Source: Burkholderia sp. USMB20 (GTDB taxonomy: Bacteria > Pseudomonadota > Gammaproteobacteria > Burkholderiales > Burkholderiaceae). Taken from it: a stretch of DNA of 64,000 nt. The notes below the pieces were generated by a model, which saw nothing but the letters and a program-made list of their open reading frames with translations, made no database searches and was not told the origin of the DNA. Shown piece by piece: positions 995-52,930 of the stretch; position 1 is the first letter of the stretch; each line of letters begins with the position of its first letter. A program made the position numbers and the translations under genes. The stretch is taken from contig NZ_JTAN02000003.1 of the NCBI RefSeq assembly GCF_000949135.2, forward strand, positions 186,001-250,000, in the 5' to 3' direction.

Positions 995-3055
<2,061 letters not shown>

Positions 3056-3079: not shown

Positions 3080-3490
3080 TCACTCCATCTCGACGCGTTG
3101 TGTCTCGCGCTCTTCCGCTTCCAGCATCGCCTTGACGATCAGATAGACGGCGGGCAGATCGTCGTCGTCGCGCTTCCAGTCGACGGCTTCCTCGACGTCC
3201 GCGGCGACCATCCGGCTGTCGCGCAGCCGGATGAAGGCGTCGACGACCATCGGATCGTTACGGTTCAGGAAGCCGGTGTTCGAGAACGCCAGCTCCTCGA
3301 CATTCAGCAGCGCCTGCCAGCTCATCGTGCGGACTGCGGCCGGATGGCTGCGGCGCCGCAAGCCGAGCGCCCGCTGCGCGGGGCCGCCGACGACACGCTG
3401 AAGATCGACGACTGCTTGCCGCGCGGCACGCTCGAAGTGGACGGGGTTGAAGCCGGGTTGCTCGGGATCGAATGCGGATGACTGGAACAT
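3080..3490 (-). CDS. Uncharacterised 136-residue protein under a LexA-type promoter
   Basis: I do not recognise this protein. It is 136 residues with a basic middle (LGLRRRSHP) and an acidic C-terminal half containing KRDDDDLP and ending ERETQRVEME. It has no signal peptide or membrane segment. The ATG at 3490 has a GAGG-type ribosome site a few bases upstream. A sigma70-like promoter with an embedded 16-bp LexA box lies 64-97 bp upstream, so the gene is very probably induced by DNA damage. It is a single gene, converging on fadH. An internal Met (MSWQALLNVEELAF) is an alternative start. A role in the SOS response is inferred from regulation alone. Confidence 0.7.
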   Translation of the reverse strand: MFQSSAFDPEQPGFNPVHFERAARQAVVDLQRVVGGPAQRALGLRRRSHPAAVRTMSWQALLNVEELAFSNTGFLNRNDPMVVDAFIRLRDSRMVAADVEEAVDWKRDDDDLPAVYLIVKAMLEAEERETQRVEME

Positions 3491-3553
3491 GGTCGCCTCA
3501 CAAAAGTCCGTCCGTCATGGGTGACGGAATTCGGGTCAAATGGTACAAAAGCA

Positions 3554-3569
3554 CTGTAAATATATACAG
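3554..3569. promoter_or_regulatory. LexA (SOS) box
   Basis: CTGTAAATATATACAG matches the proteobacterial LexA operator CTGT-N8-ACAG exactly, with the usual AT-rich centre. Flanking bases extend the symmetry (CACTGT / ACAGTG, 3552-3571). It overlaps the -10 hexamer and spacer of the leftward promoter of the gene at 3080-3490. The rightward side has no gene to serve. Confidence 0.85.
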
Positions 3570-3587
3570 TGTTCGAGGCGGTTTCAA
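3559..3587 (-). promoter_or_regulatory. Sigma70-type promoter overlapped by the LexA box
   Basis: On the minus strand a -35 TTGAAA (3582-3587) is followed after 17 bp by a -10 TATATT (3559-3564), each one base or so from consensus. The LexA box covers the -10, so repressor would block polymerase. Transcription would start near 3552 and run into the small gene starting at 3490. Confidence 0.75.
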
Positions 3588-3795: not shown

Positions 3796-4689
3796 CTACA
3801 CCGACGCGGCAATCGTCTCCCGCAGCCATCGATGCGCCGGATCGCGATGCACGCGCTCGTGCCACAGCATCGACATCTCGTAGCCGGGCACCTCGACCGG
3901 CGCCTCCACGACGCGCAATGCGGGCGTGTTGCGCACCAGCCGCTCGGGCAGCATCGCCACGAGGTCGGTTGTGGCGACGGCCGTCATCACGAACAGAAAA
4001 TGCGGCACCGACAGCACCACGCGCCGCGTGGCGCCGGCTTTGGCGAGCGCTTCGTCCGTCACGCCGAAGAAGCCGCCGCCGTCGGGCGACACGATCACGT
4101 GTTCCAGCGCGCCGAACTGCGCGAGCGTCGGGCGGCGCTTCAGTTTCGGATGACCGGCGCGGCCGACCAGCACGTAACGCTCGACGAACAGCGGCAGGCG
4201 ACGCATCCCTTCCGGCGAACCTTCGGTCGTATGGAAGGCCAGGTCGATACCGTTTCGCTCGGCGTCCTGCTCGATGCGCGGCGGCACGAGTTCGACGACG
4301 GCGACGCGCGTCGCGGGCGCGGCCGAGCGCAGCGTGTTCAGCGCGGGCAGCACGATCGTCGATTCGCCGTAGTCGGTTGCGGCCACGCGCCACGTGTTCG
4401 TCGCGGTTGCCGGATCGAACGGCGTGGCCGTCAGCACCGCGCGTTCGACCGCTTCGAGTGCGTCCCGCAGCGGCTCGCGCAGCGTTTCCGCGCGCGCGGT
4501 CGGCCGCATTCCGCGCGGCCCCGGCAGCAACAGCGGATCGCCGAACAGGTCGCGCAGTTTCTGCAGCTGCACGCTGACCGACGGCTGCGACATGTTCAGT
4601 TTCTCGGCCGCCCGCGTGACGTTGTGCTCGGCGAGCAGCACGTCGAGCGTGACCAGCAGGTTCAGATCCAGTCGTCTGAGATTGTTCAC
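3796..4689 (-). CDS. LysR family transcriptional regulator
   Basis: A 297-residue LysR-type regulator. The N-terminal winged helix-turn-helix (about 5-65) carries LDLNLLVTLDVLLAEHNVTRAAEKLNMSQPSVS split over the usual positions, and the rest is the periplasmic-binding-protein-like effector domain. It is divergent from the flavodoxin-fold quinone reductase at 4776 with an 86-bp gap, the normal arrangement of a LysR regulator and its target. That gap contains a roughly symmetric GGAATAT / ATTTCC stretch near 4700-4725 that could be the binding site. Ligand unknown. Confidence 0.85.
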   Translation of the reverse strand: MNNLRRLDLNLLVTLDVLLAEHNVTRAAEKLNMSQPSVSVQLQKLRDLFGDPLLLPGPRGMRPTARAETLREPLRDALEAVERAVLTATPFDPATATNTWRVAATDYGESTIVLPALNTLRSAAPATRVAVVELVPPRIEQDAERNGIDLAFHTTEGSPEGMRRLPLFVERYVLVGRAGHPKLKRRPTLAQFGALEHVIVSPDGGGFFGVTDEALAKAGATRRVVLSVPHFLFVMTAVATTDLVAMLPERLVRNTPALRVVEAPVEVPGYEMSMLWHERVHRDPAHRWLRETIAASV

Positions 4690-9093: not shown

Positions 9094-9228
9094 GGCCGGT
9101 CGTTTCCGTATCGATTGCAACTAACGGTCGATTTCGCCACGCTACGCCGAATGCGGAGAGGGCATCGCGATGCGATGTCATTTGCCGTAGATGCAGGCGC
9201 GCAGCGAGGCGATCAGGTCGGCAGGCGG

Positions 9229-9364
9229 GAAGGCGGGAAGGCGGCAAGGCGGCAAGGCGGCAAGGCGGCAAGGCGGCAAGGCGGCAAGGCGGCAAGGCGG
9301 CAAGGCGGCAAGGCGGGAAGGCGGCAAGGCGGCAAGGCGGCAAGGCGGCAAGGCGGCAAGGCGG
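9229..9364. repeat. Octanucleotide tandem repeat, 17 units
   Basis: Seventeen contiguous 8-bp units, mostly CAAGGCGG with GAAGGCGG variants at units 1, 2 and 12, plus degenerate half-units on both sides. The array fills the intergenic space between the converging catR and andR. A CAAGGCGG unit reads GCCTTGCC on the other strand when shifted. Octamer arrays are common variable loci in Burkholderia. All three frames stay open through it, but no gene is supported. Confidence 0.9.
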
Positions 9365-9412
9365 TAAGGCGCAAGCAGCAAGGCAACCGACCCCGACAAG
9401 CCCCGCACCCGC

Positions 9413-15415: not shown

Positions 15416-15715
15416 TCACGCGTGCGCCTTCGCACCGTGCAGTTGCAGGCCGAGCGCCTTGATCACCTTCAGGATCGTGCCGAAGCTCGGATTGCCGTCG
15501 TGCGACAGCGCCTTGTACAGCCCTTCGCGCGACAGGCCCGCGTCGCGCGCGACCTGCGACATGCCGCGCGCGCGGGCGATCACGCCGAGCGCATGCGCGA
15601 TGAAGGCCGGGTCGTCGCCGGCTTCCTGCAGACAGGCCTCGAAGTAGTCGGCCATGTCGTCGTCGGTCTTCAGGTGTTCGGCCGAATCCCACGGCCGGGT
15701 CTTGATCTTGTCCAT
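15416..15715 (-). CDS. Antitoxin of a HigBA-like addiction module
   Basis: A 99-residue protein with a lambda-repressor-like helix-turn-helix at about 45-75 (ARARGMSQVARDAGLSREGL). It matches the family annotated as putative addiction module antidote protein. It follows its toxin by 3 bp, in the reversed toxin-first order typical of higBA. It should bind both the toxin and the operon promoter. It is the last gene of the pair, converging on the DUF445 gene. Confidence 0.88.
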   Translation of the reverse strand: MDKIKTRPWDSAEHLKTDDDMADYFEACLQEAGDDPAFIAHALGVIARARGMSQVARDAGLSREGLYKALSHDGNPSFGTILKVIKALGLQLHGAKAHA

Positions 15716-15718
15716 CGG

Positions 15719-16036
15719 TTACTCCAGGTCGAGCCGCTCGAGCATCGCGTGGGCGGCGCGGATGTCCGCCTGTTGCGTCGACTTGTCGCCGCCGCAGAGC
15801 AGGATCACCCATATCGTTCCGCGCCTGACGTAGTAGACGCGATAACCGGGGCCGTGGTCGATACGCATTTCGACGACGGGCGAGCCGGCGGATTTCCAGT
15901 CGCCCGGATTGCCCATCGACAGGCGGTCGATGCGGGCCTGGATGCGCCGCCTGGCGACGCGATCCTGCAGGCCGGCAAACCACGCGTCGAAGACATCGGT
16001 GGTCCGGATACTGAACGTAGGGGCACTGTAGGGCAT
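15719..16036 (-). CDS. RelE/ParE-superfamily toxin (HigB-like)
   Basis: A toxin of about 105 residues in the putative addiction module killer protein (Gp49-like, RelE/ParE) family. It shows the family blocks FDAWFAGLQDRVARRRIQAR, DWKSAGSPVVEMRIDHGPGY and RVYYVRRGTIWVILLCGGDK. Family members are mRNA interferases. Two starts are possible: ATG at 16036 (MPYSAPTFSIRTTDVF), chosen as nearer the family length, or ATG at 16057. A promoter-like TTGACA-17-TACAGT covers both starts (see that entry), which leaves the true start open. Confidence 0.85.
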   Translation of the reverse strand: MPYSAPTFSIRTTDVFDAWFAGLQDRVARRRIQARIDRLSMGNPGDWKSAGSPVVEMRIDHGPGYRVYYVRRGTIWVILLCGGDKSTQQADIRAAHAMLERLDLE

Positions 16037-16053
16037 GGATCTCGGTGTGTCAA
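16025..16053 (-). promoter_or_regulatory. Promoter-like sequence over the toxin start
   Basis: On the minus strand TTGACA (16048-16053) and TACAGT (16025-16030) are separated by exactly 17 bp. A transcript would begin near 16018, downstream of both candidate toxin ATGs. It may be fortuitous, or may drive an antitoxin-favouring message. Confidence 0.35.
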
Positions 16054-16202
16054 CCATGGTTCACAGGTTCGATGAATGAAATTGGCTTGCCCCCAACGAT
16101 AGGGCCGCGCGCGCCGCTTGAGGTCGAATTGGCCGTCAGGCCGACCCTTTCGCGCGGCCGGACCCGGCCATTCGGCCGAAGTCGGAATTCCGCGAATCCG
16201 TC

Positions 16203-30867: not shown

Positions 30868-30877
30868 TGCCGCCTGC

Positions 30878-30967
30878 GGAGATGGCATGCCTCCCTGCGG
30901 TCGATCCCGGCGCGTCGCGCGCGGTTCGGCCCTCAACCGCCGGTTTGCCCGGCTGATGATGCCTGCG
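30878..30967 (+). ncRNA. Fluoride riboswitch (crcB motif)
   Basis: The aptamer core is plain: GGAGATGGCATGCCTCC (30878-30894; stem GGAG / CTCC, loop containing TGGCAT), later AACCGCCGG and CCGGCTGATGATGCCTGCG (ends 30967). GGCAT of the loop can pair with ATGCC, the fluoride-site pseudoknot. About 40 nt lie between the first stem and AACC and can fold as their own hairpin (CCG-CGCG / CGCGCGG). Downstream, GCCTGCG (30961-30967) can instead pair with CGCAGGC (30990-30996) around an inner TCCTG / CAGGA stem, an obvious switching partner. The controlled gene is a CLC-F exporter, which fits. Confidence 0.88.
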
Positions 30968-31051
30968 TGTTCCTGGGTCGTCAGGAGGTCGCAGGCCGTC
31001 CATGCGGTATTCTGCCGCCCAGGTTTTGATGTCCCGTCGAATCTGGAAATC

Positions 31052-47864: not shown

Positions 47865-49766
47865 TCAGGTGGCGCCTCCGTCCGGCGCGAGGTCGATGAC
47901 GACGGGGTCGTGATCCGACGAGCGATAGGCATCGGGTGCGTAATAGGCCGCCCGTTGTGCCGCGGTTTTGTAATCGGGCACGGATTGCAGCGCGACCGGT
48001 TCGTCGGCATTGATGTGCCACGCGTGCACGGCCTTCACGCGCGCGGCGAGCGGCGACGTGGCGAGTGCGTGGTCGAGGTTGCCCGCTTCGCCGCGGAATA
48101 CGTAGCTGTAGCCGGCGTTGCCGGCGAAGCGGGCGACGAGGTTCGTGTAACCGCGCGATTCGAGCGCGCGCAGCGGGTCTTCCTTCGCGTAGCTGTTCAG
48201 GTCGCCGATCAGCAGCACGCCGTCGGCCGGGGCGCCGGTCGGCGACGTGGCGAGCCACGCGGCGATGCGTTCGGCCGTACGCGTGCGCGTCGCGTTCCAG
48301 CAGCCCTGACCGTCCGACTGGTCGAGATCCGGGCCGCTCGCCCGTGGGCAGTTCTTCGATTTCAGGTGATTGACCGCGACCGTGAATGCGCGGGTGCCGC
48401 CGATGCGCCGGAACGTCTGCGCGAGCGGCGGTCGATTGCCGCCGTCGAGCGCGACGGTCGCGGCGCGCCCGACGGGTTCGGTCGTCCGGCTGTCGTACAG
48501 CAGCGCGACCGCGATCGCATCGCGGCCGAGTCGCGCCGTGCCGGGGTCGACCGCGCGCCAGCCGTCGCCGAGCCGCGCCGCGAGACGCTGCACGGCGCTC
48601 GTGGGGCCGTGGCCGTTGTTCGCGATTTCCATCAGGCCGATCACGTCGGCGCGCAGTGCGCGCAGCGCGGCGACGATCTTCGCTTCCTGGCGCGCGAAGA
48701 CGGCGGGCGTCTTCGCGCCGCGATTGGCCGGATCGTCGAAGCCGCCGCCGCTTCCGTCGCCGTTGAAATAGTTGAAGACGTTGAACGACGCGACCCGCAC
48801 GTCGGCCTGCGGATGCCGCGGCGGGGCATCGGTCCGCGGATTCGATGCGGCGTCGAAGACCGGCGCCGACGCCGGCACGGGCTGCACTCGCCACGTGCCG
48901 TAGCGCTGCTCGAGCACACCTTCGACGCCGCGCACCGTGTAGCCCGCGCGCAGCGTGTTGGCGGCGCCCAGCGCAGGCGGCGGATAGCGGGCGGTCGCGG
49001 GGTTCACGCGGCTCGAACCGTCGTCGAGCACGATGCGGTTGCGGGCATTGGCCGCCGCCTGCGCGGCGGCGTCAGCCGGCGGCACCACGTGCGTCGGCAT
49101 GTAGAGGCGACCGTGGCTGAGCACGATGCTGCCGTAGCGGCCGAGGTCGTAGGTATCGCTGACGGTCAGCGTTTGCGGAAAGCGCACGCGCATGCCTTCA
49201 TGCGCGGCGAATACTGACTCGCTGTCGACCGGCAGCACGAGCGCGGCCGGCGTGACGGTCTGCCCGCGCGCGCAGACGGCCACGCGGCCCGACAGAGCCA
49301 GTTGCGTGCGGCCGTACTTCTGCTCGATCCTGCCGGTGACGTGCACGCGTTCGCCCGGGCGGACACGCGCGTGCGGCGCGTAGACGAACAGGCCTTCCGG
49401 GACGCCCGGCCGGTGGCGCCGCTGCGCATCCGCCTGCTGGACGAAGAATCCGCCGAAGCCGTCGGCGCCGCCGAATGCCGCGGTGACGATCGCTTCGATC
49501 GACGCGGTGCGCCCGGCCAGCGGCGACCGGCCGCCGGAATGCCGGAGGTCGGCGATCGCCGTCGTGGGGCCGCCGCAGCCCGCGCTGACCGGAGGCGCGG
49601 TGGCGGCGGCGGTGGCGGCCGGCGCTGAAAGGGCAAATGCGGCAAATGCGGCAAACGAGGCAAACGAGGCAAACGAGGCAAACGAGGCAAACGAGGCAAA
49701 CGAGGCAAGCGGGGCAAGCGGGGCGAGCGACGCGGCGAGCGCGAGCGGCGGCGGCAGGCGTGACAT
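47865..49766 (-). CDS. Secreted endonuclease of the ExeM/NucH family
   Basis: A 633-residue exported nuclease. The signal peptide (about 1-55) has an unusually long hydrophobic core made of LAPLA, six SFA and two AFA triplets, encoded by a 9-bp tandem repeat. Residues ~70-300 contain the OB-fold region seen in ExeM. Then comes an endonuclease/exonuclease/phosphatase domain: VASFNVFNYFNGDGS, IGLMEIANNGHGP, VNHLKSKNC, LIGDLNSYAKED and SSDHDPVVIDL. It should degrade extracellular DNA. The ATG at 49766 has GGAG upstream; a longer open frame adds 18 unlikely residues. Confidence 0.85.
   Translation of the reverse strand: MSRLPPPLALAASLAPLAPLASFASFASFASFASFASFAAFAAFALSAPAATAAATAPPVSAGCGGPTTAIADLRHSGGRSPLAGRTASIEAIVTAAFGGADGFGGFFVQQADAQRRHRPGVPEGLFVYAPHARVRPGERVHVTGRIEQKYGRTQLALSGRVAVCARGQTVTPAALVLPVDSESVFAAHEGMRVRFPQTLTVSDTYDLGRYGSIVLSHGRLYMPTHVVPPADAAAQAAANARNRIVLDDGSSRVNPATARYPPPALGAANTLRAGYTVRGVEGVLEQRYGTWRVQPVPASAPVFDAASNPRTDAPPRHPQADVRVASFNVFNYFNGDGSGGGFDDPANRGAKTPAVFARQEAKIVAALRALRADVIGLMEIANNGHGPTSAVQRLAARLGDGWRAVDPGTARLGRDAIAVALLYDSRTTEPVGRAATVALDGGNRPPLAQTFRRIGGTRAFTVAVNHLKSKNCPRASGPDLDQSDGQGCWNATRTRTAERIAAWLATSPTGAPADGVLLIGDLNSYAKEDPLRALESRGYTNLVARFAGNAGYSYVFRGEAGNLDHALATSPLAARVKAVHAWHINADEPVALQSVPDYKTAAQRAAYYAPDAYRSSDHDPVVIDLAPDGGAT
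49633..49722. repeat. 9-bp in-frame tandem repeat inside a signal peptide
   Basis: Ten 9-bp units in three blocks: two GCAAATGCG, six GCAAACGAG, two GCAAGCGGG. On the coding (minus) strand they specify PLA, SFA and AFA triplets of the nuclease signal peptide. Because the unit is three codons, gain or loss would change only the length of the hydrophobic core. Confidence 0.9.
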
Positions 49767-52590: not shown

Positions 52591-52666
52591 CGCAGACGGG
52601 CGACGCCGGTGTGCGTGCACCGCGCGTCGCATCGAACGCTGAACGCCGAACGCCAAAACGCGGGCC

Positions 52667-52848
52667 GCCAAACGCCAAACGCCAAACGCCAAACGCCAAA
52701 CGCCAGACGCCAGACGCAGAACGCAGAACGCAGAACGCAGAACGCAGAACGCAGAACGCAGAACGCAGAACGCAGAACGCAGAACGCAGAACGCCGAACG
52801 CCGAACGCCGAACGCCGAACGCCGAACGCCGAACGCCGAACGCCGAAC
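52667..52848. repeat. Heptanucleotide tandem repeat, 26 units in four blocks
   Basis: Uninterrupted 7-bp units: five GCCAAAC, two GCCAGAC, eleven GCAGAAC, eight GCCGAAC. Each block differs from the next by one base, so the array grew by local duplication. Degenerate units extend it leftwards to about 52637. It begins 77 bp after the sigma-factor stop and ends about 210 bp before the rubrerythrin gene. All frames stay open, but it is not coding. Confidence 0.92.
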
Positions 52849-52930
52849 GAAACGCCTCCCCAGCCAGCGCCCCGCCTCCACCCGTCCCTCATTCCCGCTC
52901 CCCGCTATCGGACGGATTGAAAAAGCCTAT

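Follow-up and report, generated by a model that had tools for sequence, protein, structure and literature searches.

A conserved LexA box points to SOS control of a divergent DUF2471 gene in Burkholderia, with a predicted role beside DNA-handling proteins

We analyzed a 64,000-nucleotide stretch of Burkholderia sp. USMB20 (assembly GCF_000949135.2, contig NZ_JTAN02000003.1, positions 186,001 to 250,000 of the forward strand), referred to here as the window, and within it a small gene at positions 3080..3490 of the minus strand. The gene is monocistronic, taken from the list of open reading frames with an ATG start at 3490, and encodes a 136-residue, divergent DUF2471 protein. We find that SOS control of this gene is well supported at the level of sequence, and we favor the reading that it belongs to the SOS regulon as a single-gene unit and that its product, made upon DNA damage, would assist DNA-handling proteins without being an enzyme itself. 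Our confidence in that reading as a whole is moderate, because the LexA step comes from sequence and conservation, while the accessory function is drawn solely from the genes that neighbor sister copies.

The predicted promoter has a −35 element, TTGAAA (3582..3587, minus strand), and a −10 element, TATATT (3559..3564, minus strand), spaced by 17 nucleotides. The LexA box, CTGT-N8-ACAG, lies at 3554..3569, where the plus strand reads CTGTAAATATATACAG and matches CTGTATATATATACAG at 15 of 16 positions; on the minus strand it reads CTGTATATATTTACAG (window 3569-3554) and contains the TATATT element. A preliminary description of this DNA had proposed that a perfect box overlaps the −10 element of such a promoter, and the arrangement was recovered by our script and by a separate promoter scan, for which shuffled controls gave a mean of 0.0 promoters. 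Inspection of the sequence also places a ribosome-binding site, GAGG (3496..3499, minus strand), ahead of the ATG, and this site is well conserved among the aligned orthologues. The promoter can drive only the 3080-3490 gene, as had been suggested, because the LysR-type gene upstream on the same strand (3796-4689) stops before it and the 677-residue gene on the other flank (1022-3055), by eye of the 2,4-dienoyl-CoA-reductase type, is convergent.

By itself the bare CTGT-N8-ACAG pattern is weak evidence, because shuffling the window 100 times gave at least one perfect copy in 25 cases; the window has one (3554-3569) where 0.27 are expected. The box is convincing because of the quality of its match and its conservation, not because of the pattern alone. 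Sites were also scored in the 7.7-Mb genome of a relative, G041, which contains 37 perfect sites compared with 25 for a reversed control pattern. Sixteen of the 37 match CTGTATATATATACAG at 12 or more positions, and these include sites at lexA (two boxes) and a FAN1-like nuclease gene, both identified with Pfam, as well as at recA, dinB, imuA and splB, identified by eye. G041 encodes LexA (Pfam), and its lexA and recA genes carry the same class of box. The site at the orthologue of the window gene is the sole one of the 37 with 15 of 16 matches, and it outscores the lexA and recA sites. Two more LexA-boxed genes of G041 have no Pfam match (L169 1617-2264 and L162 1538-1990).

The preliminary description had suggested looking for the box upstream of homologues, and homologues without a box, the case it had held against SOS control, did not overturn that control. 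We found 34 homologous loci, 33 in named Burkholderia and one in P. xenovorans (L034), and a perfect box is present in 33/33 of the named Burkholderia orthologues, 75-86 base pairs (bp) ahead of the start codon. A second set, drawn from 54 high-identity orthologues among 65 genomes, gave a perfect box in all 30 loci returned, of which 19 are by appearance shared with the named set and about 11 are new. When the upstream regions of the window and the 33 loci were aligned, with the last 15 columns excluded, 15 of 16 columns were invariant in the box compared with 27 of 129 outside it, and the box is thus retained while much of the surrounding promoter drifts. The P. xenovorans homologue appeared to have no box in a 250-bp scan; a wider scan overturned this, finding two perfect boxes farther upstream, ahead of a small same-direction gene that precedes the DUF2471 gene. 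Both flanking genes, the 677-residue gene and the LysR-type gene, are present in 31 of the 33 named loci; L016, where the contig starts, has no LysR match, L033 has neither gene, and at L019 the LysR-type gene lies farther off. The ratio of nonsynonymous to synonymous substitution rates is 0.07-0.16 in ten close relatives and 0.31 in L033, and across these eleven relatives the values therefore place the protein under selection.

The preliminary description had assigned the product to no known family, and this did not hold, as the protein matches DUF2471 (PF10616), a named but uncharacterized family. The match covers residues 25-131 with an E value of 3e-5 and 24.6 bits, where the curated cut-off is 25 bits. 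Among the 54 orthologues, 23 were listed at E ≤0.001 and seven reach 25.1-38.5 bits on their own, the P. xenovorans homologue scores 29.6 bits against PF10616, and 13 columns are invariant across seven diverse DUF2471 members. By these matches the window protein reads as a divergent DUF2471 member, its own score falling 0.4 bits short of the cut-off. No other family appeared in a Pfam search up to E 10, and PHROGs, PADLOC and NCBIfam gave no match. An AlphaFold2 model built from 23 sequences is all-helical (predicted local distance difference test score 85, predicted template modeling score 0.79). The protein has an isoelectric point of 5.0, and its C-terminal half is acidic as had been described, with 17 D/E and 9 K/R compared with 6 and 8 in the N-terminal half. 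A phage origin was considered and rejected: there was no match to a phage record, and none of 86 pattern-matching stretches in viral contigs was confirmed.

DUF2471 occurs in 65/65 Burkholderia genomes searched; across Burkholderiaceae, 164 of 299 genomes have it, and these represent 10 of 25 genera. Among 369 genomes sampled from the class, G001 itself was the only one with a match, and the family make-up of that sample is visible for 20 of the other 368 genomes. In the samples searched the family was found only in Burkholderiaceae. In 172 DUF2471 loci we then looked for a box within an interval that starts 620 bp ahead of the DUF2471 match and extends 30 bp into it: 149 have a perfect box, 5 have a box that deviates at a single one of the eight fixed bases and 18 have none. 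Outside this range the same loci contain 6 boxes in 760,783 bp, a background of 0.5% per 650 bp. Perfect boxes are found in 33/33 window-type loci, the single P. xenovorans locus (1/1), 30/31 Burkholderia core loci, 30/30 core loci of g20 (g numbers label genus groups), 4/4 window-like copies at 35-37% identity (L240-L243), 26/28 Pandoraea loci, 3/12 other or plasmid Burkholderia copies and 22/33 of the remaining loci, which come from eight genus groups. The Pandoraea group owes its name to L207, which is 100% identical to a P. oxalativorans plasmid. Excluded from the census were the duplicates L095 and L096, the 30 orthologues of the second set, ten further window-type loci, all of which have the box, and matches without a listing or a locus.

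Some of the boxless loci may be read as having a box at a distance. At L063 (G037; also L259), the sole exception in the Burkholderia core group, a box lies 2.3 kb upstream and a group II intron (RF00029) sits between it and the DUF2471 start. L103 and L105 stand in a cluster with an annotated error-prone DNA polymerase and imuB (by eye), and a LexA-type box lies ahead of the cluster; L102 repeats L103 at the opposite end of its record. Together these counts make the DUF2471 family look SOS-linked.

The genes that accompany sister copies suggest what the product might do. The core Burkholderia copy sits in the origin region of a secondary chromosome, with parA- and parB-like genes (by eye), repA (Rep3), a KfrA-like gene and a gene for a Phage_integrase-family protein. 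This recombinase-like gene lies within 1.5 kb downstream of DUF2471 in 29/30 Burkholderia core loci and 29/30 g20 loci (it is absent at L061 and L075), the pairs are arranged head-to-tail, and several plasmid copies retain the pair, with RefSeq neighbors on pBC25416 among the evidence. Other sister copies have other neighbors. A DnaQ-type exonuclease gene follows DUF2471 in 23 of 28 Pandoraea loci (one was tested with Pfam and also has a sub-threshold GIY-YIG match) and in one g17 locus (L216/L252), and in one g16 locus DUF2471 overlaps the gene for an AlkB-like oxygenase. Two boxes or near-boxes followed by a small gene and then a window-like DUF2471 gene are seen in P. xenovorans and at L236, L254 and L255, and at L254 a recombinase-like gene follows DUF2471, the C-terminal motif of which, by eye, is without H/W and Tyr. 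G041 has a lone 96-residue homologue of the P. xenovorans small gene (L260 3271-3561, minus strand) with no Pfam match and with sites at 3561 and 3579, one a perfect LexA-type box and one near-perfect (one base off). A perfect CTGT-N8-ACAG also lies roughly 340 bp ahead of repA on the secondary chromosome (L170 4287-4302, L095 1711-1726); it could reflect LexA control of the replication initiator or be a chance or other palindrome.

We aligned 78 recombinase-like partner sequences, including six cases in which two of them come from a single locus or record retrieved twice, and read the active-site columns. The RI column holds K in 70 and T in 8, the His II column Q in 66, R in 8 and H in 4, the H/W column F in 69 and L in 9, and the Tyr column L in 72 and I in 6, while RII is kept in all 78. 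None of the 78 sequences has an active-site RI, H/W or Tyr. Six of the ten integrase-family proteins found in G041 were aligned as controls; RI, His II, RII and H/W are present in 6/6 and Tyr in 4/6, with M at the Tyr column in L263 and L267. Because RI, H/W and Tyr are lost in 78/78 partners while the aligned controls mostly keep them, we read the partner of many sister copies as a conserved recombinase fold that, by its sequence, has lost its chemistry.

From these data we propose the following mechanism. LexA would sit over the −10 element and hold the DUF2471 gene off, and RecA-driven cleavage of LexA upon DNA damage would switch it on. The product is predicted to be a small, soluble, all-helical and probably non-enzymatic protein that most likely serves DNA-handling proteins of the same response as an accessory or adaptor. 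The window copy would then work in trans, possibly through the dead recombinase found next to the core DUF2471 copy in this genus, and could itself be a fragment of an SOS operon whose parts have dispersed. We tentatively extend this to the family: DUF2471 could be an SOS-dedicated adaptor family of Burkholderiaceae with changing DNA-handling partners, chiefly a dead Xer-like protein at secondary-chromosome origins and on plasmids, forming a damage-induced replicon-maintenance module in these multi-replicon bacteria, with the window gene and the separately boxed small gene as the remnant of a dispersed operon still under LexA.

Several observations weigh against this interpretation. Conservation is also fairly high in the promoter directly below the box. 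The census counts come from best-scoring matches related by descent and are not independent events, and 14 of the 18 loci without their own box have no explanation (L097, L108, L109, L183, L217, L225, L226, L230-L235 and L253, several of them weak or fragmentary matches). The SOS control first proposed is well supported at the sequence level, the box being kept in 33/33 window-type loci; in the wider family 18 of 172 loci lack a box of their own. For the accessory role, the window copy and the window-like copies L240-L243 have no neighbor of the kind described above, and of the 33 loci in the eight further genus groups, searched mostly within a 1.5 kb flank, 14 have one of the partners looked for and 19 do not. 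Sister subfamilies share just 26-45% identity with the window protein, and the structural model gave no convincing fold match in the PDB, with none that backs any function.

An alternative that gives the recombinase-like protein the central place is that DUF2471 is its regulator, binding and then unseating or recruiting a Xer-like DNA-binding protein that serves secondary replicons as a repressor or structural component, with the window copy a duplicate that has the same target. The head-to-tail pairing in secondary-chromosome origin regions and on plasmids fits this, as does a partner that has wholly lost RI, H/W and Tyr and kept the fold, and MrpR of phage SPbeta offers a precedent in the available part of its description (PMC10516654). 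Against it, a recombinase-like gene of this kind is nearby in 0/28 Pandoraea loci, and none was seen in the g3, g8, g16 and g17 loci fetched, mostly with a 1.5 kb flank. We regard this alternative as unlikely.

SulA is a small, SOS-induced single protein, and the window gene, being small, single and tightly LexA-boxed, has the form expected of a division inhibitor that would block septation until DNA is repaired. The SulA family (PF03846) was not found in 19/19 Burkholderiaceae genomes searched, with a positive E. coli control, so the role of division inhibitor may be vacant. The window protein, however, has no similarity to SulA, DUF2471 being its sole Pfam match. SidA-type SOS division inhibitors are membrane-bound, but the window protein, whose best 19-residue hydropathy mean is 0.65, has no transmembrane segment and no hydrophobic stretch like theirs. 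Sister copies on plasmids and near recombinase-like, exonuclease and AlkB-like genes suggest no target at the septum, and these neighbors speak more for an accessory of DNA-handling proteins than for a division inhibitor, a reading that we judge quite improbable. That the protein mimics DNA through its acidity or inhibits nucleases, as the isoelectric point of 5.0 and a DDDD patch conserved within the window subfamily might suggest, is very improbable indeed.

The window holds other elements apart from this gene. A fluoride riboswitch (RF01734) is predicted at 30869-30972 (plus strand) with 37.4 bits compared with a threshold of 34. Tandem arrays occur at 9219-9384 (8 bp, 21 copies), 49632-49717 (9 bp, 9.6 copies) and 52633-52849 (7 bp, 31 copies), and are possible slippage-prone loci. 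Two small adjoining genes at 15416-16057 (minus strand) resemble, by eye, a HigBA/RelE-type toxin-antitoxin pair.

If the accessory reading is correct, DUF2471 gains a pathway, the DNA-damage response of one bacterial family. The dead-recombinase pairing on secondary chromosomes would give many DUF2471 copies a concrete, testable partner, and it raises the matter of how multi-chromosome bacteria coordinate repair with replicon maintenance. With no SulA found in 19 genomes, the question also arises how these bacteria stop division after damage. Among the papers that could be searched, none mentions DUF2471, and no title on the window gene appeared in the search results. As far as our searches reach, we claim as new only the family-wide SOS link and the dead-recombinase pairing.

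In G041 the window-type gene shares its box class with lexA, recA, dinB, imuA, splB and the FAN1-like nuclease gene; it differs from them in having the box nearest of 37 to the symmetric consensus and a product without an assigned function. SulA has no sequence match to the window protein, and its family was not found in the 19 related genomes. LexA-boxed hypothetical genes named hypA and hypB were predicted in beta-Proteobacteria in 2012, with hypB exclusive to Burkholderia according to the available part of that study (PMC3323433); they resemble the DUF2471 gene as predicted SOS hypotheticals, and one of the two may be a DUF2471 gene. A B. cenocepacia peroxide study, in its available part, reports recA and could not be linked to the window gene. 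Within the family, the core Burkholderia copy scores 153-184 bits against DUF2471 compared with 24.6 for the window copy, which in contrast has the DDDD patch and no adjoining recombinase-like gene. The closest parallel to the partner of many sister copies, as opposed to the window gene itself, is MrpR of phage SPbeta, a repressor that has the recombinase fold but no recombinase activity, as described in the available part of the source (PMC10516654). The two share an inactive recombinase fold, but by the same partial account MrpR retains the Lys and Tyr positions, whereas the DUF2471 partners retain RII and not RI, H/W or Tyr (PMC10516654).
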